Positions 1,890 through 26,932 of a DNA stretch of 26,932 bases are shown piece after piece. The notes below the pieces were generated by a model. The model was not told the origin of the DNA. It did not search any database and worked only from the letters and a program-made list of their open reading frames with translations. A program made the translations under genes and the position numbers. The DNA comes from a virus. Numbering within the stretch: the first letter of the stretch is position 1; every line of letters begins with the position of its first letter. The stretch covers positions 1 to 26,932 of the IMG/VR virus record IMGVR_UViG_3300037101_000175, one strand, 5' to 3'.

Positions 1890-1896
1890 CGCTTGA

Positions 1897-2014: not shown

Positions 2015-2019
2015 CTATC

Positions 2020-3320: not shown

Positions 3321-3480
3321 CCGAAATCCGGCGAATGAAATTCGCGTGCTGGAGAATCTCGTGGCGCACCACCATCGGCGCACCGATGACCCGGATGACG
3401 CTGCAGCGGCCATTGCCGCGTGCCTGGAGGAGATTGAATATTGGCGGAATTGGCGTCCGAAGAAGGGAAGGGGGAGGTGA
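3307..3480 (+). CDS. Small hypothetical protein, 57 aa
   Basis: ORF beginning MDAIDRNPANEIRVLENLV, overlapping the 3' end of the double-HTH gene by 14 bases, with GAGGGAG some 13 bases upstream of the ATG. The sequence is acidic in the middle (RRTDDPDDAAAAI) and ends in a basic tail (RPKKGRGR). It is probably largely helical. Its stop overlaps the next ATG at 3480, matching the tight overlaps of this operon. I do not recognise a family. The reading frame extends upstream to 3202 but that part overlaps the HTH gene and lacks a good ribosome binding site. Confidence 0.6.
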   Translation: MDAIDRNPANEIRVLENLVAHHHRRTDDPDDAAAAIAACLEEIEYWRNWRPKKGRGR

Positions 3481-3599
3481 TGGATCACGAAAATGCCTGG
3501 ATGTGGACTGTCGTATTTCTGGTGATTGTGGTTCTCGCCGCCGGCTGGGCGATCATCGACCCGGACCACGACCACCTAGACCCGGAGGACGGCGAATGA
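3480..3599 (+). CDS. Very small single-span membrane protein, 39 aa
   Basis: A 39-codon ORF starting MDHENAWMWTVVFLVIVVLA and ending in an Asp/His-rich tail DPDHDHLDPEDGE. The ATG overlaps the stop of the preceding small gene and follows GGGGGAGG; the TGA at 3597-3599 overlaps the ATG of the ATPase gene. One hydrophobic segment (residues of about 8-25, WTVVFLVIVVLAAGWAII) should span the membrane once, leaving an acidic C-terminal tail. Small membrane proteins in early phage operons are common but of varied function. The tight overlaps on both sides are the main evidence that it is translated. Confidence 0.6.
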   Translation: MDHENAWMWTVVFLVIVVLAAGWAIIDPDHDHLDPEDGE

Positions 3600-4495: not shown

Positions 4496-4893
4496 ACAAC
4501 CTAACAATCGCAGGGATACTTGGCCGCGACGCGGAGACGAAGACCACCAACAACGGCAAGGATTACACCAAGTTTTCTGTCGCGGTCAAAGACGGCTGGG
4601 GCGAGAACGAAAAGACGCTATGGGTTGACTGCACCATGTGGGGGGACCGCGGCGCCAAGCTGGCGCAGTACCTGACCAAAGGGTTAAAGATTACGGCCTC
4701 GGGACGAGCGGGAGTCAACGTCTGGTCGGCAAAGGATAGCGGAGAAGCCAAGGGGAGTCTCACCCTGTCCATCGACCAGGTGACCTTGCAGAGCGGACGG
4801 AAGGACGATGGGGATTCGGGGGAGAGGCAGCAGAAAAAATCGTTCAAGTCGAACAGCAACGATTTCGACTTGGACGACGAAATCCCCTTTTAA
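4492..4893 (+). CDS. ssb: Single-stranded DNA-binding protein
   Basis: A 133-aa SSB. The N-terminal OB fold begins MNNLTIAGILGRDAETK and includes KFSVAVKD and the aromatic strand TLWVDCTMWGDRGAKLAQYL, the usual SSB core. A short flexible linker rich in Lys, Gln and Ser is followed by the acidic tip DLDDEIPF, which recruits partner proteins in the SSB family. It coats ssDNA during replication and would also serve the YqaJ/ERF recombination pair encoded downstream. The ATG at 4492 overlaps the ATPase stop and has GGAGAG just upstream. Its TAA at 4891-4893 shares bases with the stop of the convergent DUF1064 gene, so the two operons meet back to back with no spacer. Confidence 0.97.
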   Translation: MNNLTIAGILGRDAETKTTNNGKDYTKFSVAVKDGWGENEKTLWVDCTMWGDRGAKLAQYLTKGLKITASGRAGVNVWSAKDSGEAKGSLTLSIDQVTLQSGRKDDGDSGERQQKKSFKSNSNDFDLDDEIPF

Positions 4894-5246
4894 CCAATGA
4901 TGGTGACGCGGACGCCGTGGATTGCCTCCACGAGCGCCCGCTTCAGCCGGCTGACGTCGGTGTCCATACCTTTGACGTCCTCGACGACCATGGCGCCGCC
5001 CGCATCGAGATAGCTGAAGTCCGCCAAGTATTTGACCGCTCGCCCATTGGGGAATCCTTCTGATCGAATCTTCACCGGCCTTCCCTCGATCACGATGGGG
5101 AAGGCCGGCTGCGTTTTCATGTCGCTGATTCGGCCGGAACGCTCCAACATCCGCAGCTCGCTGTAGCGGCGCGCCTCGGCTTTGCTGGCAAAGCGAAGGC
5201 CGTCGACCACAGTGGCGACGGCCTTGTATTTGTGCGGCCTGCTCAT
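4890..5246 (-). CDS. DUF1064 family protein (PD-(D/E)XK nuclease-like)
   Basis: A 118-aa phage protein matching the DUF1064 pattern. The start HKYKAVATVVDGLRFASKAE is followed by ARRYSELRMLERSGRISD, then YLADFSYLD and VVEDVKGMDT, and ends in a short basic/hydrophobic segment. The arrangement E24, D76, E89/D90 and K92 fits the endonuclease-like fold proposed for this family. Members are frequent in phage early regions and are thought to be nucleases or Holliday-junction resolvase-like, but the activity is not proven. Its ATG overlaps the stop of the preceding gene (ATGA). It is the last gene of the leftward HTH operon and converges on SSB with overlapping stop codons. Confidence 0.9.
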   Translation of the reverse strand: MSRPHKYKAVATVVDGLRFASKAEARRYSELRMLERSGRISDMKTQPAFPIVIEGRPVKIRSEGFPNGRAVKYLADFSYLDAGGAMVVEDVKGMDTDVSRLKRALVEAIHGVRVTIIG

Positions 5247-5590
5247 ACGCCTTCCCCCGACAGCGCGTCAAGGAAGTTCGATTGCTCACCCAGATTGAGC
5301 GCGGCGAACGTCTCACGCAAGCAATCCTGCAGCATATCCCTGTCGTCGGTCTCCAGCTTGTAAAAGCGGCGGGCAATATTGAAGTCGGTGACTTTCATCC
5401 CGAGGCTGCCCTTGATGCACGTGTTCTTCAGCGTCGACTTCGCGGCCTGAAGCTCCTTGATGGTGTCGTCGATCCGGTCAAGCTCAGCCATTGTCGACCG
5501 GATGATCTCTGCTCGCCCCTGCATGTTGTGCTGCGGGGAAACTGGCTCGAACTCATCCTTCCCCTTGCCTGCCCTCGGCTTGCTGCTCAT
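5243..5590 (-). CDS. Helical DNA-binding-like protein (GapR-reminiscent)
   Basis: A 115-aa protein: a charged N-terminal tail (MSSKPRAGKGKDEFEP), then a predicted coiled coil (AELDRIDDTIKELQAAKSTL), then a conserved-looking segment (KGSLGMKVTDFNIARRFYKL) and an acidic helical end. The pattern of a coiled coil followed by a G-x-x-V-x-x-x-x-R segment recalls GapR/DUF2312 proteins of alphaproteobacteria, but I cannot confirm that relationship. The ATG at 5590 follows AGGAG and overlaps the stop of the HTH gene. The frame is open upstream to 5845, but that part lies over the HTH gene in another frame. It lies in a three-gene operon with a regulator and a nuclease-like protein. Confidence 0.75.
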   Translation of the reverse strand: MSSKPRAGKGKDEFEPVSPQHNMQGRAEIIRSTMAELDRIDDTIKELQAAKSTLKNTCIKGSLGMKVTDFNIARRFYKLETDDRDMLQDCLRETFAALNLGEQSNFLDALSGEGV

Positions 5591-5811
5591 GTGTTGCTCT
5601 CCTGACTTATTTTCCACTCGATCAACTGGTTGATGGTCACCTCCCCCGCGGTGCAGAACTCGATTGTGCGAAGTGTCGATATTCGCGGGTCGACTCGGCC
5701 TGAGATGATCCCGTACAAATTCGACTGCGACATTTTGGCTCGCAGCGCAAAGGCGACGATTGATTCGTCGTGATCGTCGAGCCAGCGTCCGAGGGGGTTG
5801 TCGGTATTCAT
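5587..5811 (-). CDS. Cro/CI-like helix-turn-helix regulator
   Basis: A 74-aa DNA-binding protein with an XRE-type HTH at residues of about 17-45 (VAFALRAKMSQSNLYGIISG), followed by RVDPRISTLRTIEF, the usual recognition region of small phage repressors. It is transcribed away from the recombination operon and probably controls the divergent promoter region at 5812-5910. Start choice is uncertain. ATG at 5811 has no clear ribosome binding site, and TTG at 5841 would add ten residues and has only a weak AAGAAG upstream. Leaderless translation, as known for lambda cI, is a possibility. Its stop overlaps the next gene's ATG. Confidence 0.82.
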   Translation of the reverse strand: MNTDNPLGRWLDDHDESIVAFALRAKMSQSNLYGIISGRVDPRISTLRTIEFCTAGEVTINQLIEWKISQESNT

Positions 5812-5853
5812 GGTTGGGAGGATAGCAGAATTTTTTGCCAAACAATAATCTTC

Positions 5854-5898
5854 TTGCGGTCGGCTGGAGCCCCGTGTAATTTTGGATTAACGTAATTT
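5854..5898 (+). promoter_or_regulatory. Candidate rightward promoter with operator-like direct repeat
   Basis: A sigma70-like promoter can be read as TTGCGG (5854-5859), a 17-bp spacer and TAATTT (5877-5882), upstream of the gene at 5911. A 7-bp direct repeat GTAATTT lies at 5876-5882 and 5892-5898, covering the -10 box and the start region. That is where a repressor such as the divergently encoded HTH protein could act. The 99-bp divergent gap is otherwise unremarkable. This is pattern matching only. Confidence 0.4.
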
Positions 5899-5910
5899 CA
5901 GGGGGCGGCC

Positions 5911-6189
5911 ATGGTGCAGAGTATGGCGAAAATCCTCGCAGAGGCGGAAGAGCGCTTCATGGCGCGGAAGCACGAGACGATCCCGGCATCGTTTGCGACG
6001 GTCACTTTGGGGGGGGCTTATGGGGCCTTGATCGGCGGCCCGTACATGAGCCTGGACGATGCACTTGTCGACATCGAGCTCATCCCCGGTGATCCCGATT
6101 TCGGGGCCTACTACGGGACGATCCACATCGCCGCAGATGGCGATCTGACGTGGCTCGATCTGCGGCCCGAGTCGGAGGAAGCGAAATGA
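5911..6189 (+). CDS. Hypothetical protein, first gene of recombination operon
   Basis: A 92-aa acidic protein, MVQSMAKILAEAEERF..., with a central Gly-rich turn segment (TLGGAYGALIGGPYMSLDDA) and an acidic end. The ATG follows AGGGGGCGGCC; an internal ATG at 5923 is a possible alternative. No known domain is recognised. Its TGA overlaps the ATG of the YqaJ gene, so it is coupled to the exonuclease and is probably a small accessory early protein. The composition has no signal peptide or membrane span, suggesting a cytoplasmic location. Confidence 0.75.
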   Translation: MVQSMAKILAEAEERFMARKHETIPASFATVTLGGAYGALIGGPYMSLDDALVDIELIPGDPDFGAYYGTIHIAADGDLTWLDLRPESEEAK

Positions 6190-6989
6190 CGGCGCTTCTT
6201 GCACCTCATCCGCCGGAGTGGCATGCGGCCCGCCGGATGGGCATCGGCGGCAGCGACGCGGCTGCGATCGTCTCCGGCGATTGGCTCCGGCTGTGGCGGG
6301 AAAAGACCGGGCGCGCCGAGCCCGAGGATCTGTCGGGCAATTTCGCGGTGCAGCTCGGCACCGTCACCGAGGCGCTGAACCTGGCCTGGTACGAGCGGGT
6401 GATGATTCGCACCGTCAGCCGCCAGGGCGAGCAATGCGTCGCTGCCGACCACCCGTTTCTGCGCTGCACCCTGGACGGCTGGGACGCCGTCGACTGCTGC
6501 GTGATCCAGGCCAAGCATGTCAACGGCTTCGCCAAGATCGATGAGGTGGTCTCCCGCTACACCGCTCAGGTGAGCCACGAGATGATCGTCACCGGTGCGC
6601 CGAAAGCCATCCTGTCCGTGATCGTCGGGACCAACGCCCCGGTTTACGAGCGGGTTGACCTGGACGAGTGGTGGGCTTCCGACTATATCGGCCTTTGCCG
6701 CGATTTTTGGCGCCACGTCGAAAACGACGAGGAGCCGGTGCAGGGTGCACCGCTGGCGCCGCCGCCGAAGATCGAGAAGTTCCGCACGGTCTCGTTCGAG
6801 GGGAACAGCAACTGGGCAGCCTATGCCGCCGACTGGATCGATAACCGCGATTCGGCCAAGGCATTCGAGAAGGCCGCAAAAGAGATTAAATGCGCGGTCG
6901 AGGCAGACGTCGGCCTCGCGACAGGCCATGGCATCACGGTGTCCCGGAACAAGGCGGGCGCCCTATCCATATCCATCAAAAAGGTGTGA
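6186..6989 (+). CDS. YqaJ-type viral recombinase exonuclease
   Basis: A 267-aa protein of the lambda-exonuclease/YqaJ family (PD-(D/E)XK fold), expected to resect dsDNA ends and feed the ERF annealing protein encoded just downstream. Visible motifs are RMGIGGSDAAAI at residues 17-28, E62 in the helix after VQLGTVTEALN, D97 in CTLDGWD, and IQAKHVN with K110. The residue two before the catalytic Lys is Gln (Q108), where Glu is usual. The start at 6186 is set by the ATGA overlap with the previous gene; the frame opens 12 codons earlier. The C-terminal third (KIEKFRTVSFEG onward) is a helical extension. Confidence 0.88.
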   Translation: MTALLAPHPPEWHAARRMGIGGSDAAAIVSGDWLRLWREKTGRAEPEDLSGNFAVQLGTVTEALNLAWYERVMIRTVSRQGEQCVAADHPFLRCTLDGWDAVDCCVIQAKHVNGFAKIDEVVSRYTAQVSHEMIVTGAPKAILSVIVGTNAPVYERVDLDEWWASDYIGLCRDFWRHVENDEEPVQGAPLAPPPKIEKFRTVSFEGNSNWAAYAADWIDNRDSAKAFEKAAKEIKCAVEADVGLATGHGITVSRNKAGALSISIKKV

Positions 6990-6991
6990 AG

Positions 6992-7255
6992 ATGAAAATT
7001 AACCTGGGAAGTGAAGAGATCTCAGACGCAGTGCGGTTCTGGCTGGAGAGCAAGGTCGCGAATTTCGGCGAGTACATCATCACCGACATCGACGTTCCGT
7101 CGAAGTACTCGGCGTACAAAGAGGTCGAGGTGACTCTGGAACGCCGCAAGCTGGTGCCCATCGACCCTCGGGATATTCTGGCAGCCAAGCCCTGCCCCGT
7201 GGCGACGGCCGACGACGTTGCGCAATCCATGCTGGAGCACATCGACCATGAGTGA
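6992..7255 (+). CDS. Hypothetical protein between YqaJ and ERF genes
   Basis: An 87-aa protein starting MKINLGSEEISDAVRFWLES, with AAGGTG just upstream of the ATG at 6992. The frame is open from 6890 but earlier starts would sit inside the YqaJ gene. It has mixed alpha/beta character with a central strand-like part (YIITDIDVPSKYSAYKEVEV) and no recognised domain. It is sandwiched between the exonuclease and the annealing protein and overlaps the ERF start by eight bases, so it is probably a small accessory of the recombination module. Confidence 0.75.
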   Translation: MKINLGSEEISDAVRFWLESKVANFGEYIITDIDVPSKYSAYKEVEVTLERRKLVPIDPRDILAAKPCPVATADDVAQSMLEHIDHE

Positions 7256-8033
7256 TCGTGTCGACCCGGTCACCGGAGAGGTTGCAATCCGCGTCCTGGT
7301 GATGGCTCCAGCCCTCGCCGCGGCGATCGTCGCAGTGAAAAAGGGGGTGAAGCAGCTCGGCTATGACGAGGTCAACAAGTTTGCCGGCTACAAGTACGTC
7401 AGCGTCGACAAGTTCTACGACTCCATCTGCCCGCTGATGGCAGCCGCCGGCCTGTTCGTGGTGCTGGACGAGGTTCGGGCCGAGGTGCACCAGCATGGCG
7501 CTGCGGCAAAGGATTCGTCTTGGCTCCACGCCGACTACCAGCTCTATCTCTGCCATGAGTCCGGTGCGATGTTCGGGCCGCTGAATCGCTCAATCATGGT
7601 TCCGGCTAGCGGTCCCCAGGCCTTCGGATCGGCGCAGAGCTACCTGGAGAAACAATTCCTTCGCGCCCTATTCAAAATCCCCACCGGCGAGAAGGACGAG
7701 GTCGACTCGCTCAACAAGGCGGACCTGCCCCAGGGAGGCGCTAGGAAGGCCGCTGGCGCCCGAAACGCCCCGCCCACCTCCGATGGGGCGGCAGGCTCCA
7801 CCGCCAGCCACGAGCCCCAGGACGACGCCAAGGCAGCAGCCCGGATCGTTTTCGAGCGTCTGCGCAAGGCCATCCAGGAGGCGGAGACGCCCGAGGCGAT
7901 CGAGGCCGTGCTGCAGGCAACACCTGCGGACTGGGAGGACCTGAAGGCAGTCGCGCCCGAAGGCTACAATCGGCTGACGATCGGTGCCACCAAGCGAATC
8001 GAAGCGCTGATGGCGAAGGGGGACGCACCATGA
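7248..8033 (+). CDS. ERF family single-strand annealing protein
   Basis: A 261-aa recombinase of the ERF type. The N-terminal core (residues of about 18-145) contains KFAGYKYVSVDKFYDSICPL, the segment LFVVLDEVRAEV, and GPQAFGSAQSYLEKQFLRAL, which match the ERF fold. A low-complexity linker (about 150-190, rich in Ala, Gly, Pro and Ser) leads to a helical C-terminal tail, as usual for the family. It anneals complementary ssDNA produced by the YqaJ-type exonuclease encoded upstream, giving a two-component recombination system for replication or genome circularisation. The ATG at 7248 is preferred over the frame opening at 7218. The stop overlaps the next ATG (ATGA). Confidence 0.88.
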   Translation: MSDRVDPVTGEVAIRVLVMAPALAAAIVAVKKGVKQLGYDEVNKFAGYKYVSVDKFYDSICPLMAAAGLFVVLDEVRAEVHQHGAAAKDSSWLHADYQLYLCHESGAMFGPLNRSIMVPASGPQAFGSAQSYLEKQFLRALFKIPTGEKDEVDSLNKADLPQGGARKAAGARNAPPTSDGAAGSTASHEPQDDAKAAARIVFERLRKAIQEAETPEAIEAVLQATPADWEDLKAVAPEGYNRLTIGATKRIEALMAKGDAP

Positions 8034-8842
8034 TCTGGGGCTGGGACGCCGACTTCACCGCGTTTACACGCCCTCCCGTCTCGCTGCCCGGCGGCATGCA
8101 CGCCTGCCTGCCGGCGTGGAGAACGTCCGTCCAGCCGCTGTTCGCAGCGGGGCGGAAGGGGGCAGCCCTGATGGTGATCGCCTCCTTCGCCGCGCCGTTG
8201 ATGGCCCTGGTCGGGGGCGTGGGCGCCGTCGTCTCGGTGACTGGCGTCGGGAGTACCGCAGCCCTGCGCGCGGCTGCCAGCGTGTGGGGCGATTTCGAAG
8301 CCCTCGCTTTTGTCGGACCCACGAGGGCGAAGATAGAGAAGTTGGAGGGATTTCTTCACCTGCCGGTGATCTGTTCGCTGCTGCGCTGCTGCCCGGCGAT
8401 GGAGGCCGCGGAATTCTGCGAGGGCCTGGTGCTCCCCATGGGAGCATGGGCGAGGAGGACACTCGTGCTGACAAGGTCGGAGAGGCCGGTCTTTCCCGTA
8501 ATGTGGCCGATCTCGGACGCCCCTGGGGTCGAGGTCCCCTTCGGCCGGCGCCTGTCGGCACTTGAGACGGCCGACGTCGACGGCGCGGTTGCCGGCGCCG
8601 GGGCGGCGGGCGCCGCCTACCTCGACTATCTGGTCGATCCTACTGTAATCGCGTGGTGCCGCAAGATGCTGGTGAGGCGCTACGCAGAGCTCCATGACGC
8701 TGGTTCCCAGACCGAGCCTCATGCCCTACGGGCGCTGGCTGCTCTGTCCGTGGCTGCGATGATCGTATGCCAGCTCGATATCATCGCATTCGACTATTTG
8801 GCGCTGACGACGTGGGCAAAAGAGAAGGTGCTGAAGCGTTAG
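8030..8842 (+). CDS. P-loop ATPase-like protein with lost Walker motifs (DUF927-like)
   Basis: A 270-aa protein coupled to the ERF gene by an ATGA overlap. Its layout follows DUF927-type phage and plasmid ATPases: a hydrophobic segment (ALMVIASFAAPLMALVGG), then a strand and loop where Walker A should be, then RAAASVWG, then a segment ending HLPVI. At the P-loop (residues 71-79) it reads TGVGSTAAL, with no GK[ST], and after HLPV (110-113) it reads ICSLL where Asp-Glu is expected. The protein therefore seems to be a full-length but catalytically dead relative. The relationship is my pattern reading. It ends in TAG, sharing bases with the stop of the convergent gene. Confidence 0.6.
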   Translation: MIWGWDADFTAFTRPPVSLPGGMHACLPAWRTSVQPLFAAGRKGAALMVIASFAAPLMALVGGVGAVVSVTGVGSTAALRAAASVWGDFEALAFVGPTRAKIEKLEGFLHLPVICSLLRCCPAMEAAEFCEGLVLPMGAWARRTLVLTRSERPVFPVMWPISDAPGVEVPFGRRLSALETADVDGAVAGAGAAGAAYLDYLVDPTVIAWCRKMLVRRYAELHDAGSQTEPHALRALAALSVAAMIVCQLDIIAFDYLALTTWAKEKVLKR

Positions 8843-9105
8843 GCGCCGGCTGCCTTGATCGCGGCCAGCAGCTCGCCCATGCGGTCGTGTGTCTTCGACT
8901 TCAGTTTGCCCTCGTCGACCCGCGCGGTCGTCCCCAGAACCGAGGAAATCACCTCCTTCTGGAGGGTGAGAAGGCGGAAGTATTCCGAGTTGTTCAGGGC
9001 CCGGGCGCCGTCCGTCCCCAGTGCCTCGGGGTCGATACGCAGGATGGCGAGCGCCCGGTCGAGCGCCAGAGTGAGTGCCCCGGCGAGCTGTTCGGACTGG
9101 CTCAG
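8839..9105 (-). CDS. Small packaging-like helical protein without a normal start codon
   Basis: The frame encodes about 88 aa (SQSEQLAGALTLALDRALAI ... GELLAAIKAAGA). It includes LTLQKEVISSVLGTTARVDE, a pattern I associate with small helical phage proteins next to terminase or structural genes. No ATG, GTG or TTG precedes this part of the frame near the end of the PurD-like gene. A CTG at 9103-9105 lies directly at that gene's TGA. The alternative is a -1 slip on GGGG just before that stop, which would fuse it to the PurD-like protein. It is the last leftward gene and converges on the + strand gene with stop codons sharing bases. The terminase small subunit is a possible but unproven identity. 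Confidence 0.6.
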   Translation of the reverse strand: MSQSEQLAGALTLALDRALAILRIDPEALGTDGARALNNSEYFRLLTLQKEVISSVLGTTARVDEGKLKSKTHDRMGELLAAIKAAGA

Positions 9106-10421
9106 TAGATCATCCCCGCCGCGAACCCGTGGGCCTGAAGCTTCGGCAACTGCTTCGCCAGCCGGGCTCCGATGTCCGTCCGATACATCGGACTGTTCGG
9201 AATGGCGATCTGGTCGAGGACGCGATAGGCGCGGCGGCGGGATTCTGTCACCGTCTCCCCCACTCCCATTGCCACCAGAACATAGTCCCCCGCCGTCACC
9301 AGGCATGGCGCCGTCTCCACCTTGCCGCCGATGTCCTGCGGCGCCGTCCCCCTCGACACCTCGCACAGGGATACGAGAGACATATCGATCCGGGTCGAAG
9401 TAATGATCGGGATCCCGCAAACCTCTTTCCGCGTGATGTGGGAGTACGGATAGTCCGGGATCGACATCACCACTCCCGTTGATACCGAGTTTAGCGAGGG
9501 CGGCGTTGCGTGCTGCCCGAGCGCGAGGTCTGCCAGCCATTCTGCGTGGTCTCCTGTAATGAGCGACTGCTGAATATTGAAGGTCGGCCAGCCCGGCCGC
9601 ATGGTGAACTCCAGAGGCCACGGCGTGCCGTCGTCGTCGACGATGCAGTTGACGTCGACATAGCCGGTGTGGCCGGTGCTGACCAAACAGTCCTCCAGCG
9701 GCGCCAGAACCTGGTCCGCCAGCTTCGACTTGCCGACATTGCGGATGACGGTACCTTGTTCTCCTGTCGCCACCCCCTTTTCGCCGTTCATTAGCTTCTT
9801 GAATTCCCAGTTTTCGCACCAGCCTGCTGCGAAGCCGGCCGGCCCGATCCAGCCGCCGACCGCCATCTCGGTCCCGCCGATGAATTCCTGAAGAAGGAAC
9901 GGCCCCTTGTGCCGGCGCCCCTTCTTCCAGCGCTCCAGCATATAGACCATGTCGGCCGGCCCGGACGCGACGTAGGTCAGGCTCTTGTCGGGCTCATCGC
10001 CGCATGGCTTGGAGACGAAGCGGCGGTTCTCCCGCTTCACGTAGGCGATGGCGTCGTCGTAGCGTTTAAACTCCTGCGAGGGCGCCACGGCGATACCGTG
10101 CTTTGCCAGCACCTTCATGCCGTGGCCGCGATCGAGTTCCAACCGCGCCGAGTCCGTGGTGGCGGAAATGACCGCGATGTCGGGGTTCATCCGCCGCCAT
10201 GCGTCGATCTCGGCGATGTAGCGGGTGTTGTCGGGCAGGAAGACCAGGTCGGCCCACTTCATCCATGTCGTCCACTCGCTGACGATCTCGACCAGGCCCT
10301 TGCCGATCTGGTCTGTGCGCGTGGTCTGGGGGATGTAGTGCTTTACCCTGTGGCCGTCCGCCAGGCATCGCATGGCGAAGTCGAGGGCGTAGCCACCCTT
10401 GTCGACGATGAGGACTCTCAT
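9102..10421 (-). CDS. PurD-like ATP-grasp ligase
   Basis: A 439-aa protein with the PurD (glycinamide ribonucleotide synthetase) layout. It has an N-terminal Rossmann-like part (MRVLIVDKGGYALDFA), an ATP-grasp domain with FVSKPCGDE (K138) and LLQEFIGGTEMAV (E179, E185), and a C-terminal part ending RRRAYRVLDQ...YRTDIGARL, like the PurD C domain. The metal-site motif of PurD (EFNARFGDPE) is here EFTMRPGWPT at 271-280: the Glu and Arg are kept but the metal-binding Asn and the DPE are lost. It may therefore join a different amine and acid. It lies in the late operon after the ejection genes, an odd place for purine synthesis. Confidence 0.85.
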   Translation of the reverse strand: MRVLIVDKGGYALDFAMRCLADGHRVKHYIPQTTRTDQIGKGLVEIVSEWTTWMKWADLVFLPDNTRYIAEIDAWRRMNPDIAVISATTDSARLELDRGHGMKVLAKHGIAVAPSQEFKRYDDAIAYVKRENRRFVSKPCGDEPDKSLTYVASGPADMVYMLERWKKGRRHKGPFLLQEFIGGTEMAVGGWIGPAGFAAGWCENWEFKKLMNGEKGVATGEQGTVIRNVGKSKLADQVLAPLEDCLVSTGHTGYVDVNCIVDDDGTPWPLEFTMRPGWPTFNIQQSLITGDHAEWLADLALGQHATPPSLNSVSTGVVMSIPDYPYSHITRKEVCGIPIITSTRIDMSLVSLCEVSRGTAPQDIGGKVETAPCLVTAGDYVLVAMGVGETVTESRRRAYRVLDQIAIPNSPMYRTDIGARLAKQLPKLQAHGFAAGMIY

Positions 10422-10429
10422 GCGTACCC

Positions 10430-12358
10430 CTATTGACCGAACATGAGGCGTTGCCCCGGCTGCGAGAGCATGAGCTTGCGTGCGCCCATCCGGGCCGCCC
10501 CCGGCGCCGCGCTGGCGACCAGGCCAGGAATGCCGGCCCCGGCGAACCCCGCAAGGCCGCTGGCGCCGGCCATGGCCGCGTCGAGAGCGCTGAGTGACTC
10601 GGGGTGGCCGAAGTCGGACGGGACCTGCATCACCTTCTTGCCGGCCCCGTAGGCGTTGGCGATGGCGCGGAATTCGGGGGGGACGTTCTGCGCCCCCACC
10701 TTCCTGACGATCGCGGCGATGGTGCGCGCCCTCACTTCCCCCGTGGTGTCGTTCAGCGCCCGCTCGACGCTGTCGAGGGTGGCGTAGCGCTGTCGGGCCG
10801 ACCGGATATCCTGGACCATGCCGCCGACGGCCTGGGGACCAAGGCGCTGGGCTTCGCGCAGGCGTTTGATCGTATCGCCTACTTCGCCGCGCAGGCGCTC
10901 GCCGGTGCCGCCGCCGTCACGGACTCCGCCGATCTTCACCAGGCGCTGCTTCATCTGGCGGATTTTGGCCTCGGAGTTCTTCAGCGCTTCGGCCAGCGCT
11001 TCGGCCGGCCCTGGGACGATGTCAGGGATTCGCGCTACGATCGAGCGCTGCGACCCGGGCTGATCGACCAGGCGACGGGAGACAACGGCGCGCTCTTTGT
11101 CGATCGCCTCGAGCAACTGAGCGCGCTCAGTTTGGAGGGATGAAATGTCGGCCTTCAGACGCAGTTCTGCGTTCTGGAGATTGCGTTCCATCATGCTTTC
11201 GATCGCATGGGCTATCTTGCTCTCTGTCTTCGCAAGTGCGCGCACATCGGGGTCTTTCGCCAGCTTGGCCTGCTCGAAGTGCGCCGAAGCGTCGCTACGC
11301 AGGGCCTTCACCCGCCCGGTTGCCTCGGCCGACGTCATCGTCTTGGTGCGGGCGAATTCTTTGACCAGAGCCGCCACCCTTGGCGATGTCGCGGCCGATA
11401 TCGGGAACTTCGCCTGCGCAGACGCCTGGGGGCTGCCGGACGCCCCGATTTCCATCTTGAATTGCGCGTCGGCTGCCGGCCGCAGGGTCGGCATCACCTT
11501 GGCGGGGGCGTCCCACGCCTTGCCCGTCTCGCGCTTGGCCTGCTTGATGACGTCCAGGTCGAGGTGGGTGTCTCGCCCCATCCCAACGCCCTGAGCGGCC
11601 AGGGCATTGGTGGTCGCCTGGTTGGCTGCCGAGGCCTCCTGTTCCGTCTTGACCTTGCCGCCGAGGCCCTGCGCCACCTTGGCGGCAATCCCCTCGTCCT
11701 TCGTGGCAGTCCGGGGCGGGAAGACGTAGCCCGCCGCGCGGCTTTCCGCGATGCCAGGGCGAAGTTCCCGCCGGTTCAGCGCCGAGACGCGCTGAGCATC
11801 GGCAAGCTCGGCCTGAGCAAGCGGTTCGATGGCCCGCCCAGCCGCCTTGGCAGCCCCGGGCAAGCCAGGAACTGCCATTGGGGCAGCCTGTTCCGCCAAG
11901 TTGGCGCCGGCGCCACCGAAGACAGAGATGAAGGCGCGGTGATTGCGCTGATCGGGGGTGTCGTAGGGCATGGCCTGAACGTGCTCGGCCAGCGACCGGC
12001 GCAGAGGGTCGCCCACCAGCGCCTGAGATGTGCCCGAGGCCGGGCTTCCAGCCATCTGGAGGCCGCCCATCCCAATGCCGAGAAGCCCCTTGCTGACGTT
12101 GCCTGCCCTGACGTCCTGAATTCCGCCGGACGCGGCAGCCTTGCCCTCGCCCCACTGGGCTGCGATGTCTTTGCCGACATCGCCCAACCCGCCCTTGGGT
12201 GGCAGCTTGGACTCCGGCGCTGGCGGAGCGGCTGCCGGGGCAGCGTCCCACTCAGACTTCCATGCGCCATTGGCCTTGGCCTTGGCGACGAAATCGGCCT
12301 TTGGCATCCCGTCCGGGACACCCTTGACCACAGTTCCATCCGGCATCCTCACGTTCAT
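10430..12358 (-). CDS. Large internal virion/ejection protein (gp16-like position)
   Basis: A 642-aa Ala/Gly-rich, largely helical protein. It begins MNVRMPDGTVVKGVPDGMPK, a short module seen at the N-terminus of many large phage virion proteins. Long coiled-coil stretches follow (about 385-560), and a Gly/Ala-rich hydrophobic part near the C-terminus (GASGLAGFAGAGIPGLVASA) could insert into a membrane. Order and size mirror T7 gp16 after gp14/gp15-like genes, so a role in DNA ejection is inferred. The frame is open to 12817, but the ATG at 12358, five bases after the stop of the preceding gene, is the sensible start. It terminates with TAG. Confidence 0.75.
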   Translation of the reverse strand: MNVRMPDGTVVKGVPDGMPKADFVAKAKANGAWKSEWDAAPAAAPPAPESKLPPKGGLGDVGKDIAAQWGEGKAAASGGIQDVRAGNVSKGLLGIGMGGLQMAGSPASGTSQALVGDPLRRSLAEHVQAMPYDTPDQRNHRAFISVFGGAGANLAEQAAPMAVPGLPGAAKAAGRAIEPLAQAELADAQRVSALNRRELRPGIAESRAAGYVFPPRTATKDEGIAAKVAQGLGGKVKTEQEASAANQATTNALAAQGVGMGRDTHLDLDVIKQAKRETGKAWDAPAKVMPTLRPAADAQFKMEIGASGSPQASAQAKFPISAATSPRVAALVKEFARTKTMTSAEATGRVKALRSDASAHFEQAKLAKDPDVRALAKTESKIAHAIESMMERNLQNAELRLKADISSLQTERAQLLEAIDKERAVVSRRLVDQPGSQRSIVARIPDIVPGPAEALAEALKNSEAKIRQMKQRLVKIGGVRDGGGTGERLRGEVGDTIKRLREAQRLGPQAVGGMVQDIRSARQRYATLDSVERALNDTTGEVRARTIAAIVRKVGAQNVPPEFRAIANAYGAGKKVMQVPSDFGHPESLSALDAAMAGASGLAGFAGAGIPGLVASAAPGAARMGARKLMLSQPGQRLMFGQ

Positions 12359-12362
12359 GGGA

Positions 12363-13886
12363 TCAGTTCCAACTGCTGAAATCGACTGTCTTCTCGCCAC
12401 CGCCTTGCTTCGGCCCTGTAGCACCGCCGCCCTCCGTGCCGCCGCTCGATCCGCCCGACCACAGGCCCTTGATTTGATCCGTCGTCTCGTTGATCGCATC
12501 GTCCGTTGCTCTGACCCGAACGCCAATGGCCGTTCGGGCCGAGTCGATCGACTTCTTTGCCTGAGCATACGAGCTATTCGGTTCGAAGAACGCTTTCCAC
12601 TCCTCGCGGTCCAGCAAGGTGCCTCCCGAGCCCCCGCCAGTCGCCGACGACGACAGCTTGGCGAGTTCGCCGCCGAGTTCCTGACCGAACAGTTCTCGCC
12701 CCTGGTTTGCAACCTGCCCGGTTTCCTGTTTCCACCGGCTGACGAGTTGAGCGAGTCTCGGATAATTGGGCTTGCTGCTCGCCTGCTGCGCGTCGATCTC
12801 CATCTGAAGCTGTTCAAGGTTCCCGAGCGCCGTCTTCTCGAAGCCCGAAACCTTGCCCTTCATGATCATTTGCTGGGTGCGTAGCTTGTTGAGTTCGACT
12901 GCCATCTCTCGCTTCTGCGATACTTCCAGAGGCGTCATCTCGGGATGTTCCGCCGCGGCAGCAGCGTTGCCTTTTGCCCTCGCATCCTTGCCCATGCCGA
13001 GGGATTCCCCTCCCATGTAGACGGCCGCGGCATTCTTGCTGAGGTCCTCCCCACCGCCGCGCCCACCGCCCGGGGTCTTGTTGTCGAACTCGCGCACCCG
13101 CTCCGCGACGTTGGCCACGGCCGCGCCGGCGCGGGCGTCTGTCGCATAGCGCTGGGTCGCGTCGCGCTGGCCTGCGATGTCGCGCTTGGTGGCGTCCCCC
13201 TGGTTTGCGACGTCGACGCGGGTCTGGTTGTTTCCCAGGGCGTTCATCCTCGACACGATGGCGCGGTCGAAGGCGGACAAGCCCGCCTGCCCCATCTTGG
13301 CCGTCTCCACCCGCTGCATGGCGAACCCGTTCGCAGTCTGCGGGTCTGCCCCCTTCGATCCGGCAAAGGACATGGCCTCGTCGTAGACCTTCTGAAGATC
13401 GGGCGGGGACATGGTGTCACCCTGCGGCATTGCCTGGGGCTGCTGCTGAGGCTGCGGCGCACCGCCGGCGCCTGCGAACGCCCCGATGCCGCCCTGTGGC
13501 TCCTGAGACACCGGCCCCATCTGCTGCGGTCCACGCTGCGCCTGCGGCAGGCCCATCGGCCGCGGCTGGGCGCCCGGCATCATCGACATCTGCTGTTGAG
13601 GTGGAGCCATCGGGCGTGACGTCGGCCCCTGTTGCTGCGGGAACCCGCCGCCGATCGCGCCCGGCCCGCCCCCCATCTGCTGCGGCATGCCCATGCCCTG
13701 GGCGCGCTGCATGCCGAGCTGAGCAATACCCTGCTGCTGCTGCTGCAGGCGCGCCCGCTCCGCCGATTTCTCCTCCTCGGCCTTGATCTGGAGCTTGTAT
13801 TCCTGCATCGCCAACTGCTGGCGCCGCTGCTGCTGGTAGCCCTGAGCCATATAGCCGAGGTCGCCGAGTCCCTGCATGAAACGCAT
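12363..13886 (-). CDS. Gln/Met-rich internal virion protein (gp15-like position)
   Basis: A 507-aa protein. The N-terminus (MRFMQGLGDLGYMAQGYQQQ) is followed by a low-complexity Gln/Met/Gly/Pro region (about 45-165), a helical middle with KRDIAGQRDATQRYATDARA, and coiled coil (about 310-400). The C-terminal tail is Gly/Ser-rich. There is no enzyme motif. It lies between two other long virion-type proteins and is preceded by GGAGGG upstream of its ATG. By position it corresponds to the T7 gp15 ejection protein, but sequence similarity cannot be judged here. Confidence 0.75.
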   Translation of the reverse strand: MRFMQGLGDLGYMAQGYQQQRRQQLAMQEYKLQIKAEEEKSAERARLQQQQQGIAQLGMQRAQGMGMPQQMGGGPGAIGGGFPQQQGPTSRPMAPPQQQMSMMPGAQPRPMGLPQAQRGPQQMGPVSQEPQGGIGAFAGAGGAPQPQQQPQAMPQGDTMSPPDLQKVYDEAMSFAGSKGADPQTANGFAMQRVETAKMGQAGLSAFDRAIVSRMNALGNNQTRVDVANQGDATKRDIAGQRDATQRYATDARAGAAVANVAERVREFDNKTPGGGRGGGEDLSKNAAAVYMGGESLGMGKDARAKGNAAAAAEHPEMTPLEVSQKREMAVELNKLRTQQMIMKGKVSGFEKTALGNLEQLQMEIDAQQASSKPNYPRLAQLVSRWKQETGQVANQGRELFGQELGGELAKLSSSATGGGSGGTLLDREEWKAFFEPNSSYAQAKKSIDSARTAIGVRVRATDDAINETTDQIKGLWSGGSSGGTEGGGATGPKQGGGEKTVDFSSWN

Positions 13887-13899
13887 AATCAGCCCTCCA

Positions 13900-14955
13900 T
13901 TACATCGCCAGCCCCACTAGCGGCGTCGTGGCGCTTGCGCCACCGCCGGCACTGAGCGCCCCACTGAGGTCCGAAGCACTTGAGAGGACGTCTGTTCCCC
14001 CCGCAAAGAGTCCGGGGATCGACGAGAACAGGCTGCCTATCCCAGCGCCCCCCGACACCATGCCGCCGAGAGAGCCAATCCCGCTCATCATCCCCTGGGT
14101 CGCCTGCTGGTCCGCCTGCCATGCCTGCATGTTCTGCTGATAGGCGGCGTTGACAGCCGAGTCATAGCTCGACGAGGCGCTCTGGCCGAGGTTCATGTAT
14201 TGCCCCGCCGCCTGCATCCCCGACAAGTCGGGCTGGAGGTTGGCAGAGCCTGCCGTGCCTGCTGCGCCGATGGTCGAAATGTCCGTGGTCAACGGCGCGT
14301 TGTAACCCGCATAGGCCAGGGACCCGGCGCCGACTGCGCCCGTCACGGCCTGGTTTGCCATGTTGCCCGCCGCGGTGAAGTCGGTCCCGGCCTGATTCAT
14401 GAGCGTGTTGTAGGTGCCGGCCGCCGTCTGCTCCCGGCCCAACTGCTGGTTTTGCCAGTTGCTGTTGAAGTCCATGGCAGCCTGGTTCTCGCCGCCGGCC
14501 GCGTAGGGAGAGCCCGAAACACCGTTCTGCGCCGCGATGGCGTTCTGCTGCTGTTGCATCTGCTGATACTGCGAGTTGTAGAGCGTCTGCTGTGGGTCGA
14601 AGCCCTGGTTCAGGGCCTGGTTGGCGTAGGGGATGGCTGCCTGCCCCTGCTGATAGAGCGCCTGTGATCCGCCGACCTGTTCCGGAATGCCGACTTGGGT
14701 GGCGATCTGCTGCCCCGCCTGCGCCCCCTGGAGCACCTGGCCGGCGTATGGGTTGCTCACCACCCCTTGCGCGGCCGTGGCAGCCTGAGGTGCCATGGTG
14801 GCAAAAGTCTGTGCCGCCGGCTGGTAGCTCGACATCATCGTTTGGTAGGATTGGTCAAACCCCTGCTGGTCGGTCGGGATGTAGTTGGGCTGCCCACCGT
14901 AGCTCTGAGGGGTCGGCTGCATCGGGGCGCTGCCGCCACCACCACCATCACTCAT
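13900..14955 (-). CDS. Gln/Ala/Gly-rich internal virion protein (gp14-like position)
   Basis: A 351-aa protein starting MSDGGGGGSAPMQPTPQSYG, rich in Gln, Ala, Gly, Asn and Tyr, with repeated YQQ/NQ motifs. A glycine-rich hydrophobic C-terminal segment (MMSGIGSLGGMVSGGAGIGS) could associate with membranes. T7 gp14 is likewise a membrane-active ejection protein, and the gene follows the gp13-like GNAT gene as in T7. The start has GGAGG at a good distance. It ends 13 bases before the next gene's ATG. Function inferred from position. Confidence 0.72.
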   Translation of the reverse strand: MSDGGGGGSAPMQPTPQSYGGQPNYIPTDQQGFDQSYQTMMSSYQPAAQTFATMAPQAATAAQGVVSNPYAGQVLQGAQAGQQIATQVGIPEQVGGSQALYQQGQAAIPYANQALNQGFDPQQTLYNSQYQQMQQQQNAIAAQNGVSGSPYAAGGENQAAMDFNSNWQNQQLGREQTAAGTYNTLMNQAGTDFTAAGNMANQAVTGAVGAGSLAYAGYNAPLTTDISTIGAAGTAGSANLQPDLSGMQAAGQYMNLGQSASSSYDSAVNAAYQQNMQAWQADQQATQGMMSGIGSLGGMVSGGAGIGSLFSSIPGLFAGGTDVLSSASDLSGALSAGGGASATTPLVGLAM

Positions 14956-14958
14956 GGC

Positions 14959-15426
14959 CTATCCCTCCAGAAATCCACGAAACACCCGCTCGCTCGACGT
15001 CAATCCCAGGCGGGCGAGAAGCGACGCCACCCTCCCGTTCTTGAACGTTTCTTTCTCCCGCACCTGCACCACGCAGGGACGCGGCAGCGCAGCAACCGCC
15101 GCCTCGAGGAAGCGGAAGCCGTTTAAACCCCGCCTCTCATCCGGCGCCAACCAGTACGCAGCCTCGTCGGCGAAGAGGGTCGTTCGGCACCGGGCCGGAC
15201 GATAGAGGTACCACTGAACGTATCCGACCAGAACGCCACAACGTCTAGCCGTGAAGGTGCGGAATATCCCTGCCCGCTCTCGGGCAAGGTAGTCGCTGAC
15301 GTCGACGTCAAGCGGCACCAGATCCTGGTCGAGGGCGATTTCCGCATAGTGCAGCGTCGCCAAGTCGAGGATGCCGCTGGCAACGAGAGCCCCGACCTTC
15401 TCCCAGGCGAAGACGAGGCCGCTCAT
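14959..15426 (-). CDS. GNAT-fold virion protein (T7 gp13-like)
   Basis: A 155-aa protein starting MSGLVFAWEKVGALVASGIL. It has the GNAT acetyltransferase layout: a central strand VLVGYVQWYLY, the acetyl-CoA loop APDERRGLNGFRFLEAA (RRGLNG at 98-103), then VVQVREKETFKNGRVASLLARLG. Phage homologues of this type sit at the gp13 position before internal virion proteins. Whether they acetylate anything is not known. The ATG at 15426 overlaps the preceding stop (TGATG) and follows GAGAGG; the open frame to 15855 is spurious. It opens the run of ejection-type genes. Confidence 0.85.
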   Translation of the reverse strand: MSGLVFAWEKVGALVASGILDLATLHYAEIALDQDLVPLDVDVSDYLARERAGIFRTFTARRCGVLVGYVQWYLYRPARCRTTLFADEAAYWLAPDERRGLNGFRFLEAAVAALPRPCVVQVREKETFKNGRVASLLARLGLTSSERVFRGFLEG

Positions 15427-15575
15427 CACGCCTCTCGCGGCCCCGGCGCCGAGCGCTCGGGAGGCTTCGAGCGCTCGGTGCCGCTGTTCACGCTGCCGCC
15501 TTTCGGCTTCATGCTGGCGTCGACGGCGGCGGGGGAGTGGGTGGTCAAGCCCTCGTGCAGTGTACCCTTTGCCAT
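15426..15575 (-). CDS. Small basic/proline-rich phage protein, 49 aa
   Basis: A 49-codon ORF, MAKGTLHEGLTTHSPAAVDA..., ending PPERSAPGPREA. The ATG follows AGGAG at a good distance, and the TGA overlaps the ATG of the GNAT gene (TGATG). It is low-complexity and rich in Ser, Pro, Gly and charged residues, so probably unstructured. Similar small genes precede the gp13-like gene in other podoviruses and some are minor virion or tail-assembly proteins; that identity is a guess here. Its start lies close to the phased repeat array at 15667-15774, which may regulate it. Confidence 0.65.
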   Translation of the reverse strand: MAKGTLHEGLTTHSPAAVDASMKPKGGSVNSGTERSKPPERSAPGPREA

Positions 15576-15614
15576 GGAGGTTCTCCTGGTGAGATGTGTT
15601 TTCGTGCCACGAAT

Positions 15615-15950
15615 CTACACCGAACCGGGCGGATTGGGAACTCCGAGGCTCTGGTGCAGACTGGACGCGACAAACGGGACAGGGCGGGACAAATCCGTGT
15701 TTGTCCCGTTTGTCCCGTTTGTCGAGATTTGTCGAAATTTGTCGGAATTGTCGAGATTTGTCCCGCTTATCGCGTCGGGCAGGCAGACGTGGACCAGGCT
15801 CTGCCCCCACACTGGGATCAACGCCAGCCAGGCTGCCGCGCCAGATGCCGACCACGAGGCGGGGATTGCCGCAACGCCACAGGTGGCGATAATCCCGGCC
15901 CCCAGGGCGACTTGCGAACTTTTCTCCGCCAAGCGGTCAGCCAGCCACAT
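15615..15950 (-). CDS. Small two-span membrane protein of the lysis cassette
   Basis: A 111-aa ORF starting MWLADRLAEKSSQVALGAGI. Hydrophobic segments at residues of about 13-30 and 36-56 (SASGAAAWLALIPVWGQSLV) give two predicted membrane spans, as in small holins. The ATG follows GGGGGTGG and overlaps the peptidase gene by 14 bases. The C-terminal half (about 59-95) is encoded by the phased repeat array and reads as Thr/Asn/Asp-rich sequence, so this part may not be under protein-level selection. It could be a second holin or antiholin; the XhlA-like protein upstream is another holin candidate. Confidence 0.6.
   Translation of the reverse strand: MWLADRLAEKSSQVALGAGIIATCGVAAIPASWSASGAAAWLALIPVWGQSLVHVCLPDAISGTNLDNSDKFRQISTNGTNGTNTDLSRPVPFVASSLHQSLGVPNPPGSV
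15667..15774. repeat. Helically phased TTTGTC repeat array with inverted copies
   Basis: On the + strand, copies of TTTGTC followed by CCG or GRR start at 15700, 15709, 15718, 15728, 15738, 15747 (ATTGTC) and 15757, with a weaker one at 15766. The spacing is 9-10 bp, about one helical turn. Inverted copies (CGACAAA, CGGGAC, CGGGACAAA) lie at 15667-15693, so CGGGACAAA (15685-15693) and TTTGTCCCG (15700-15708) form a perfect 9-bp hairpin. The mixed 9/10 spacing breaks the reading frame, which argues against a protein repeat and for a DNA- or RNA-level element. Confidence 0.75.
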
Positions 15951-21658: not shown

Positions 21659-23530
21659 TCACCCCTGTTGCGCGGTCTGGTAGCCCAAGGGCTTGTAGGC
21701 CGCATAGACATTACCGAGGATCATTCCCGCCGTTGACGTCCCGGTCAATTGCAAGCTCATCTGCTTGAACTGGATCGGCTTCGACCAATATATCGGCCTC
21801 TGAACCACCTTTGGGGCTGTGCTCCCCCAAAATCCCTCCCCCCAGAGGAACGTCCCCCAGATGTAGAGCGACACGCCCGTGGCAGTGATCGTCGGTGTGT
21901 CGAGCACCGCCCCGATTTCGTTGCGCGCGGAGACCTGGATTGTCTGGGCGTTTTGCAGGCAGCACATCACCGTCGCCTGCACCATCACGTTCTCCGCCTC
22001 GGCGAATCCGTCGGGAAGCAAGGTTGTGGAGAATTCCCAGGTCAGGGCCAAGCCGTTCTCGACCAGGGAGTCTGCAGGCCCCGGCGTGGAATTGCTCTGC
22101 CATAGCTGCCCCGGAATGCCGTAGGGCGCGATGATGAAGCCGTTGCCGGCCGACCCTTGCCACGGTTGGATAAGGCTGGCGGGAAAGGTGTGAGCTCCGC
22201 TCCATACCTTGCGCGACAGGTGATACCAATATTCTTCGTGCGGCTGGTTCTGAGCGCCGCCGTTCTGAACCGAGGCCCGGTAGGTGTCGCCGTTGAAAGC
22301 GGCGCAAATGCGGCTGGGGAAAACCGCTTCGAGGAAGCCGAGGCTGACGCCCTGGCCGTCGGCGCCGATCGGCGGGGTGATATTCCCCCCCTGGTCGATC
22401 ATCCGCAGTCCGTCAGATGCGACGAAGACGAGGCCCTTGTTGGTATTGACGATGGAATTCGGCGCGATGGTCCCCTGGCCGGTGCCGACGGAATTGACTG
22501 CGAGGGCGCCGGCCGAGCCCGCCGACGCAGAGAAGTCTCCGGTTATCATCACCATCTGCGATGCGCCCTGGAAGGCGATTAGCGTCTGGAGCACGCCGCC
22601 GGTGGTCTGGTAGACCGGCAGGCCACCGAAGGCCGTGTCGGGCAGCCCATTGCTGTTGGTCAGAGCCTGCCCGGCGTTGGTGATCTGGGTGGCATTGCCC
22701 GAGTCGCTGAACTGCCGCCCGTTGGCGACGGCAAACCAGGCCCGGCCGGTGAAGTTTTTCACTGCCACGGGGATCGACACCAGGGCATTGCCGTTGGTGT
22801 TGCCTGCCCCCCACTGCGGCGCAGCCGTCGTGCCGCCGTACACCGTCAAGATCACCCCTGCGTGGCTGCCCGTGGCTGCTGCCGACAGGGTGGCGGAGAG
22901 GCCATTGACCGCGATCGCCGTGATCGTGGTGCCGGCGGGGATGTCGCCGGCCGATGACGAAATCGCCATGCCGATGTTCCACCCAGCCTGAAGGGCGTTG
23001 AACGACAGGGACGTCAGCGCATTGGTGCCGTTGGTCGCGCCCGTGATCGAGGATGAGGTGAAGCCGGAGATATCGAGCCAGCCGAAAAAATTGCTGCCGC
23101 TGCTGAAGCCAGGGTGTGTAAACACCACGCGGTTTCCGACCACGTCACAGGTCGGCGGCACCCAGTCCCCGGCCGTCGACAGAGACGCCGGCAAATTGCC
23201 CGCCGTCACCCCGCTGATAGAGAGGAACGTGTTGGTGGCGATGTTGTAGGCGAAGGGCTGACTCCGGCTGGCGTAGGCGCCCGAGGCGATCAAGCCATAG
23301 GCGATGTTGCCGACCACCCTGAGACACTCGATTTCCCCTGGCGAGTTGAAGCCGGGGAAGGTGGTCAGGACGAAGGACGCTGGGCGCGGCACCCACATCT
23401 GCGGGTTGTTCGGCGCCGGGATCAGGTTGGACAGCGACTCCATGGCACCGGGAAACAGGTTGGTGCCGTCGACACCGTCCGTCAGCCCCTTCGGCCGCAC
23501 CGAAATCGTCTTGAATCCGCGAATCGCCAT
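21659..23530 (-). CDS. Large tail protein (nozzle or stabilisation type)
   Basis: A 623-aa beta-rich protein. It starts MAIRGFKTISVRPKGLTDGV, then AMESLSNLIPAPNNPQMWVP, a layout typical of podoviral proteins that form the tail tube end or stabilise packaged DNA. Repeated patterns of WFAVANGRQF, MVMITGDFSAS and GLVFVASDGLRMIDQ look like propeller blades. An inserted module at about 180-228 (GWNIGMAISSSAGDIPAGTT and continuation) is also found in the protein at 25427-25960. The gene follows the tail adapter gene by one base. The role is inferred from order: capsid, adapter, then this. Confidence 0.78.
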   Translation of the reverse strand: MAIRGFKTISVRPKGLTDGVDGTNLFPGAMESLSNLIPAPNNPQMWVPRPASFVLTTFPGFNSPGEIECLRVVGNIAYGLIASGAYASRSQPFAYNIATNTFLSISGVTAGNLPASLSTAGDWVPPTCDVVGNRVVFTHPGFSSGSNFFGWLDISGFTSSSITGATNGTNALTSLSFNALQAGWNIGMAISSSAGDIPAGTTITAIAVNGLSATLSAAATGSHAGVILTVYGGTTAAPQWGAGNTNGNALVSIPVAVKNFTGRAWFAVANGRQFSDSGNATQITNAGQALTNSNGLPDTAFGGLPVYQTTGGVLQTLIAFQGASQMVMITGDFSASAGSAGALAVNSVGTGQGTIAPNSIVNTNKGLVFVASDGLRMIDQGGNITPPIGADGQGVSLGFLEAVFPSRICAAFNGDTYRASVQNGGAQNQPHEEYWYHLSRKVWSGAHTFPASLIQPWQGSAGNGFIIAPYGIPGQLWQSNSTPGPADSLVENGLALTWEFSTTLLPDGFAEAENVMVQATVMCCLQNAQTIQVSARNEIGAVLDTPTITATGVSLYIWGTFLWGEGFWGSTAPKVVQRPIYWSKPIQFKQMSLQLTGTSTAGMILGNVYAAYKPLGYQTAQQG

Positions 23531-26272: not shown

Positions 26273-26932
26273 TCAGCCGAAGGTCGCTGTGTAAGCGGAC
26301 ACGCTCTCGATCCGCGCCATGAACTGGACGTTGAGGAGAATCGTTCCGTAGAAGGTTTTCCAGCCGATGATGCGCTGCTGATTGAGCGGATCGCTCTTGT
26401 CCGCGTCCTTCAGGTACGACCACTCGACGTCCTTCAGCTTGACCTGGCCGTAAGCGCCGCGGCCGATAACGTAGGTCGGATACACGGTCAGACCCGTGGC
26501 GGGGCTGGCGGGCGGGGTCTGCGCCATGCCGGTGCCAGTGATCGTCACCGCCGTATTCGGCGGGATTTGCGTCGCCTGGCCGGCGAGCGGGCCGTTGACG
26601 GGGCCCGATGCGCACAGGCCGAGATTGGTCGGGCTGTTGGTGGTGCCGACGTAGATGTTGAAGGTGTAGCCGACCGTGTTGGGCGTGGTGACGGTGATGC
26701 CGCCGTTGGCCGCGTTCATGACGATCGCGGCCGGCGCGGCGCCGCCGTAAATCCTGCTCTCGTACTGGTTCTGCGTGTCGACGCCGGTAACCAGGATGTA
26801 TTGGCTCGCCGCGCTGAAGCTGCCGGCGTTGGCGGCATAGTTTCCGACGATGGCCGCGTATCCGGTCCACGACGGCACCATGTTGGACTTGCAGAAGCGG
26901 ATGCCGGACCACTCGCCCGCCTCGTAATTGTA
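26273..26932 (-). CDS. Major capsid protein, N4 gp56-type (5' end outside window)
   Basis: The frame is open to the window edge; 219 C-terminal residues are visible, starting YNYEAGEWSGIRFCKSNMVP. This motif, and the end VYPTYVIGRGAYGQVKLKDV ... SDPLNQQRIIGWKTFYGTIL ... ARIESVSAY, match the C-terminal part of N4 gp56-family (HK97-fold) major capsid proteins. An apparent start at 26881 is internal and should be ignored. A beta-rich insertion (about 75-125 of the visible part: NGGITVTTPNTVGYTFNIYV) resembles a surface domain. It is the first gene of the visible late operon; portal and terminase should lie outside the window to the right. Confidence 0.9.
   Translation of the reverse strand, partial: YNYEAGEWSGIRFCKSNMVPSWTGYAAIVGNYAANAGSFSAASQYILVTGVDTQNQYESRIYGGAAPAAIVMNAANGGITVTTPNTVGYTFNIYVGTTNSPTNLGLCASGPVNGPLAGQATQIPPNTAVTITGTGMAQTPPASPATGLTVYPTYVIGRGAYGQVKLKDVEWSYLKDADKSDPLNQQRIIGWKTFYGTILLNVQFMARIESVSAYTATFG

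Follow-up and report, generated by a model that had tools for sequence, protein, structure and literature searches.

The window, by which we mean the entire 26,932-nucleotide stretch of viral DNA analysed here, carries a gene for a PurD-like ATP-grasp enzyme, and this gene is a near-core but dispensable late gene of an uncultured short-tailed phage lineage. Automatic annotation would name it purD and take it for an auxiliary metabolic gene that boosts purine supply, but the evidence says otherwise. With about even confidence we favour the reading that it encodes an active ATP-grasp carboxylate-amine ligase that would not make GAR, would be produced late, and would probably act on a small-molecule or otherwise conserved substrate of the host. 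What is new here is the phage branch, and its near-core late role, of an enzyme family that has barely been noted.

The gene is an open reading frame on the minus strand with an ATG start and no internal stop. Its position, and those of the motifs discussed below, are as follows.

9102..10421, minus strand: PurD-paralogue ATP-grasp enzyme of 439 residues (open reading frame, family and PDB matches, model, fold search)
9582..9611, minus strand: codons for EFTMRPGWPT (residues 271-280), counterpart of EFNxRxGDPE in PurD
9750..9815, minus strand: codons for ENWEFKKLMNGEKGVATGEQGT (residues 203-224), counterpart of SQDHKRxxDxDxGPNTGGMGA in PurD; Asp212 of the Aquifex enzyme is Glu206 here
10380..10403, minus strand: codons for residues 7-14, at the position of the G.GGREHA motif of PurD, which is absent here (no GARS_N match)

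Profile searches placed the protein near PurD and outside its accepted limits. The match to TIGR00877 scored 58.7 bits (E 4e-16), far below the cut-off of 288 bits, and in Pfam the GARS_C (1.5e-7) and GARS_A (1e-3) domains were found just below and below their gathering thresholds, respectively, with no match to GARS_N. A PHROG search of the enzyme gave no match, and the significant sequence matches in the PDB were PurDs only. The AlphaFold model, built from 51 window and phage-locus sequences (pLDDT 92, pTM 0.91), is well ordered and without disordered tails, and apart from about 15 C-terminal residues it has no extension beyond the PurD fold. Model and fold search place the protein in the ATP-grasp fold; PurD structures fill the first 13 places of the structural search (Z 31-36, 377-396 residues), the best reaching a Z of 35.8 over 393 residues with the GARS_C domain included. 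The next structural families are PurK and biotin carboxylase (Z about 24), and a BFVD search returned no close viral structure. The preliminary description had held that the fold and the C-terminal domain follow PurD, and both the match of the model to the whole PurD fold and the detection of GARS_C bear this out.

The active site was mapped by profile alignment to Aquifex PurD (chain 2yw2), in which ATP is contacted by Lys103, Lys143, Glu185, Glu192 and Lys214 (PMC8880213, PubMed 35207568), Mg by Glu100 and Lys214, and glycine by Asp212, Arg287 and Glu292 (PMC8880213). Kept in the window enzyme are Glu100 (E95), the second conserved P-loop lysine (K138/K146, the region to which Lys143 maps), Glu192 (E185), Lys214 (K208) and Arg287 (R275), while Lys103 and Glu185 are conservatively changed to R98 and Q178. 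Both glycine-site acids are replaced, Asp212 by E206 and Glu292 by T280, leaving R275 as the one glycine contact of three that is kept. The substitutions were then compared in a set of 12 phage, 8 prophage and 22 cellular members of the paralogue clade and 13 PurDs. Position 280 in the clade is T, L, A, I or H and never E; the metal-site Asn285 has become T273 in all 42 paralogues, and the N-terminal GGREHA motif, fixed in the 13 PurDs, is missing from every one of the 42. The Prosite pattern PS00184, R[LF]GDPEx (as quoted in PMC3261824), does not match RPGWPTF in the window protein, its D and E being absent in all paralogues tested. In contrast to these changes, the ATP-site lysines and metal-site acids (K138, K146, K208, E95, E185 and E271) are fixed or nearly fixed.

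The altered motif that drew attention to the gene, EFTMRPGWPT where PurD has EFN.RFGDPE, is thus present as described. The 56 non-redundant phage members all have E271, T273, R275, G277, W278 and P279, and K138, K146, E185, E206, K208 and E221 show no variation. Judged by this conservation, the change is a family signature beyond chance. The loss of the Asn and of DPE is not peculiar to the window phage and marks the whole paralogue clade, cells included. That it signals a changed substrate, as had also been suggested, appears likely, given that residues which bind glycine in PurD are changed (roles from PMC8880213).

As far as the alignment tells, most of the nucleotide and metal site is preserved, together with the Arg binding the carboxylate that is phosphorylated, and we infer that GGREHA serves PurD as the holder of phosphoribosylamine. 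Since the nucleotide and metal site and the Arg are kept while the glycine-site acids are changed, the simplest reading would be that the chemistry is retained and that both the acid and the amine are new. The change of the metal-site Asn could weaken catalysis, which counts against this reading, and a catalytically dead PurD-fold protein with a structural or regulatory role would accommodate both the lost Asn and the late structural context of the gene. However, PurK and PurT are functional although their E-x-N metal site has no Asn; loss of the Asn alone therefore does not mean inactivity. Moreover, E95, K138, K146, E185, K208, E271, R275 and the glycine-rich GxATGE loop vary little or not at all from phage to archaea, a degree of conservation that a scaffold would not need, and we regard a dead enzyme as very improbable.

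The enzyme has at least 579 relatives in IMG/VR. dN/dS is 0.02-0.08 among close relatives and reaches 0.4 in distant pairs, in which dS is near-saturated. The full-length relative MW202796 (43.8 kb, circular, from Manatee Spring) carries the enzyme at 47% identity, the gene being unannotated there. A search of 50,697 phage records gave no match other than MW202796 and host purD-like sequences; the latter were set aside as apparent host purD on mislabelled or unannotated records, as judged by identity and annotation only. Prophage copies (38-56% identity) were found in the genome collection in Paraburkholderia, Glaciimonas and others, and full-length cellular copies (30-34% identity) in Micrarchaeota and other DPANN archaea, haloarchaea, Patescibacteria, Woeseia, Parvularcula and Ekhidna. 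In 12 of 15 genomes with a paralogue or prophage copy, a TIGR00877 match above the cut-off lies at another place.

A tree of 55 proteins sets PurD apart from the paralogues with 100/100 support and joins the cellular copies in one group (97/93), with the phage and prophage copies beside them. R98, Q178, E206, E221, T224 and T273 are fixed in the phage, prophage and cellular members alike and absent in the 13 PurDs; the window protein has all six. The cellular paralogue is patchy, occurring in 47 of 116 Halobacteria, 8 of 145 genomes in the phylum of G022 and 1 of 200 in that of G024, and yet its copies are very alike across domains (mean column identity 68%), which suggests that it has spread horizontally.

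A 2011 survey of archaeal purine genes concluded that two "extra PurD" proteins of haloarchaea are not GAR synthetases, having noted that they possess neither the Asp of GDPE nor the metal site nor the motif at the N-terminus (PMC3261824). From that description and our matches in Halobacteria, these proteins, rrnAC0307 and Hlac_1553, probably belong to the cellular paralogue group. No neighbour gene was common to the approximately 55 cellular copies compared, nor, beyond close relatives, to 20 haloarchaeal loci, and no phage genes lie beside the cellular copies with the same active-site signature. Some haloarchaeal copies appear to serve as integration sites (L256 and L257 in G065; also G041 and G064). 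In G065 the N-terminal half (bases 1-650) adjoins an intact copy and the C-terminal half (bases 646-1307) lies about 76 kb away, the halves overlapping by 5 bp within the EHK motif, as if a large element had inserted and brought a replacement copy. Another genome, G304 of the G022 phylum, has two copies of the cellular paralogue in tandem (contig C3, 252255-254939).

That the enzyme is an ordinary PurD, making GAR and boosting purine supply, is suggested by the fact that PurD is the nearest named family in every library. However, the score against TIGR00877 is far too low, the glycine-binding acids, the metal-site Asn and GGREHA are all changed and fixed in the changed state, and the tree keeps the PurD clade apart; placement inside PurD with the same substitutions was not found, in agreement with the earlier view that this is not an ordinary PurD. 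Expression in a late operon follows DNA synthesis, and two haloarchaeal members were not considered GAR synthetases (PMC3261824). As had been noted, no other purine gene is nearby, and none is annotated in MW202796. We therefore find a GAR-forming enzyme hardly credible.

The surroundings of the gene in the window are as follows.

8839..9105, minus strand: small open reading frame directly downstream of the enzyme, the last before the convergent early genes (weak phrog_11401 match)
10430..12358, minus strand: large upstream open reading frame, probable internal virion or ejection protein (position and gene order compared with relatives; no family match); its start is placed at Met 154 of an open reading frame listed as 10430-12817
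12363..13886, minus strand: virion-type open reading frame, probable internal virion protein (gene order; no family match)
13900..14955, minus strand: virion structural protein-like open reading frame (phrog_8003, E 2.6e-4; homologues at the same place in relatives)
14959..15657, minus strand: GNAT-like open reading frame heading the internal-virion cassette, start uncertain; 24% identical over 128 residues (E 1.6e-8) to an MW202796 protein annotated as N-acetyltransferase
21659..23530, minus strand: tail stabilization-like protein of the same late operon (homologues at the same place in relatives)
26273..26932, minus strand: C-terminal part of the major head protein, running off the end of the window (phrog_1357, E 2.3e-14; 63% identical to the MCP of G009)

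The capsid C-terminus, an SU10-like adaptor, the stabilization-like protein, a lysozyme and the virion-type open reading frames all lie on the strand of the enzyme, confirming the late structural operon of the preliminary description. The gene order of this operon in relatives is terL, portal, capsid, adaptor, stabilization protein, fibre, GNAT-like protein, two to three virion-type proteins and last the enzyme, after which come the early genes on the opposite strand. Of 86 loci in which a long open reading frame precedes the enzyme, 59 have a 4-bp overlap between its stop and the enzyme start; in the window there is an 8-bp gap. As a query, the stabilization protein matched near-identical contigs only. 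The early genes of the window (180-8033, plus strand) include a SNF2-type helicase, a DnaG-like primase, an AAA ATPase, an SSB, a YqaJ-type exonuclease and an ERF recombinase, with no purine gene among those named. An O-antigen ligase domain protein (19733-20899, plus strand; Pfam Wzy_C, E 1.3e-13), encoded on the opposite strand in the tail-fibre region, could alter host LPS.

All 15 long contigs (41.9-46.8 kb) that were picked by their capsid protein alone carry the enzyme, as do 15 of 18 selected through a distant portal or capsid. Of the three without it, G163 (44.9 kb) and G165 (43.8 kb) are near-full-length, and in both (L475-L480) the gene is cleanly missing between the large virion open reading frame and the next small gene. 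The enzyme is thus not strictly essential for the virion type, since these two do without it. The pair offers a natural comparison for the role of the enzyme.

The position of the gene raises the question of whether the substrate is a protein, with the enzyme attaching a small molecule or an amino acid to a protein of the virion, the upstream internal virion protein being the likeliest. The gene is the last of the ejection cassette, coupled in most loci to the large upstream open reading frame in lytic phages and prophages; amide-ligase genes are known from podophage structural regions (Pa11virus TC6, PMC6209634; OM43 phages, PMC10580990); and a YGG[TPSG] tail ends the large late open reading frame in about 15 lineages. 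The strictly late position beside ejection-type genes fits such a target at least as naturally as it fits the reading we favour. However, no region is common to the upstream proteins, BLASTP shows no relationship for several of them, the cellular copies have no such partner, and the upstream protein of G163 and G165, which lack the enzyme, is 38% identical to that of the enzyme-bearing L121. The codons of the tail, TAY GGN GGN, lie a few bases ahead of the next start and resemble a Shine-Dalgarno sequence in frame; the upstream protein of the window has no such tail. We consider a protein ligase unlikely, with an appreciable chance nonetheless.

The YGG endings themselves (L032, L035, L049, L051, L062, L070, L071, L102, L120 and others) were set aside as a substrate, being a likely in-frame ribosome-binding site that the window does not have; GGT and GGC codon variants leave a protein-level signal possible. 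Co-variation of the enzyme with one upstream domain was likewise not found, G163 and G165 sharing a C-terminal module with L121.

Alternatively, the location beside the ejection genes could reflect co-packaging, the enzyme being ejected and acting early in the next host, in counter-defence or in metabolism. Translation coupled to internal-virion-type genes and a well-ordered model without disordered tails are consistent with this. On the other hand, no packaging signal is known, PADLOC gave no defence-related match, and the short C-terminal extension is the sole addition to the PurD fold. We judge a packaged enzyme improbable.

A conserved, cell-derived substrate fits best. The window and MW202796 enzymes are 47% identical, whereas their MCP, TerL, portal, stabilization protein and upstream open reading frames are without a BLASTP match, and in enzyme-bearing phages the upstream protein can be anything from about 500 to 1960 residues long, many of these proteins being unrelated by BLASTP. 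A single virion protein serving as target would be expected to be recognisable in every phage with the enzyme, which is not the case. Because the phage enzymes stay about 50% identical while their operon partners diverge beyond recognition, a small-molecule substrate derived from the cell seems probable, and because phage genes are absent around cellular copies bearing the same active-site signature, the substrate would be conserved and not partner-specific. Of the targets proposed earlier, a virion protein is so far unsupported: the enzyme is conserved, the virion-type proteins upstream of it have become unrecognisable between phages, and a search for a conserved target tail gave none. A role in DNA nucleosides finds no support, a cytosine methyltransferase being the sole base-modification gene annotated in MW202796 and expression being late. 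A literature search found nothing specific.

By analogy with PurD, our preferred ligase would use ATP to phosphorylate a carboxylate, and attack of an amine on the resulting acyl phosphate would yield an amide. The acid would not be glycine and the amine probably not phosphoribosylamine. Made late and translated together with a large internal-virion-type gene, the enzyme would probably have as its substrate a host-cell small molecule or some other conserved molecule of the host, and its product may serve virion assembly, DNA ejection or late host manipulation. Catalytic activity, the small-molecule substrate and the role are what we infer from these comparisons. More tentatively, and with some doubt, we suggest that the paralogue common to archaea, ultra-small bacteria and podophages makes an amide metabolite or adduct not described before, which phages need late, for assembly or DNA ejection. 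An orphan enzyme found in cells across domains, noted before merely as not PurD (PMC3261824), here belongs to the near-core late genes of a phage lineage widespread in the environment, and the identity of its substrate would give the family a reaction and test amide-ligase chemistry in virion assembly, ejection or late host manipulation.

Among known systems, PurD (TIGR00877; PDB 2qk4, 2xcl, 2yw2, 1gso) shares with the window enzyme the complete three-part fold, most ATP and Mg residues and the carboxylate-binding Arg; the window enzyme differs in its approximately 20% identity, in Glu for Asp212, Thr for Glu292 and Thr for Asn285, in the lost GGREHA, and in its place in a phage late operon. 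PurK, PurT and biotin carboxylase share the ATP-grasp core (Z about 24) but match its structure more weakly, at 10-14% identity. Closer are the haloarchaeal "extra PurD" proteins (PMC3261824) and their DPANN, Patescibacteria, Woeseia, Parvularcula and Ekhidna relatives, which match at full length and have in common with it the six diagnostic residues, an aromatic residue at 278 and no Glu at 280; these cellular copies, the sister clade to the phage and prophage copies, are stand-alone genes with EFTxRFGYPT and NFEHKK, whereas the window enzyme has EFTMRPGWPT and NWEFKK. Finally, podophages carry amidoligase, ATP-grasp and glutamine amidotransferase genes (Pa11virus TC6, PMC6209634; OM43 phages, PMC10580990; phiEco32, as cited there), and their amide-bond-forming enzymes have been proposed to modify the cell wall and exclude superinfection (PMC6209634, PMC10580990). 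These enzymes belong to families other than that of the window enzyme (PF12224 and others), but all are of the amide-bond-forming type, as is predicted for the window enzyme, and all occur in short-tailed phages.
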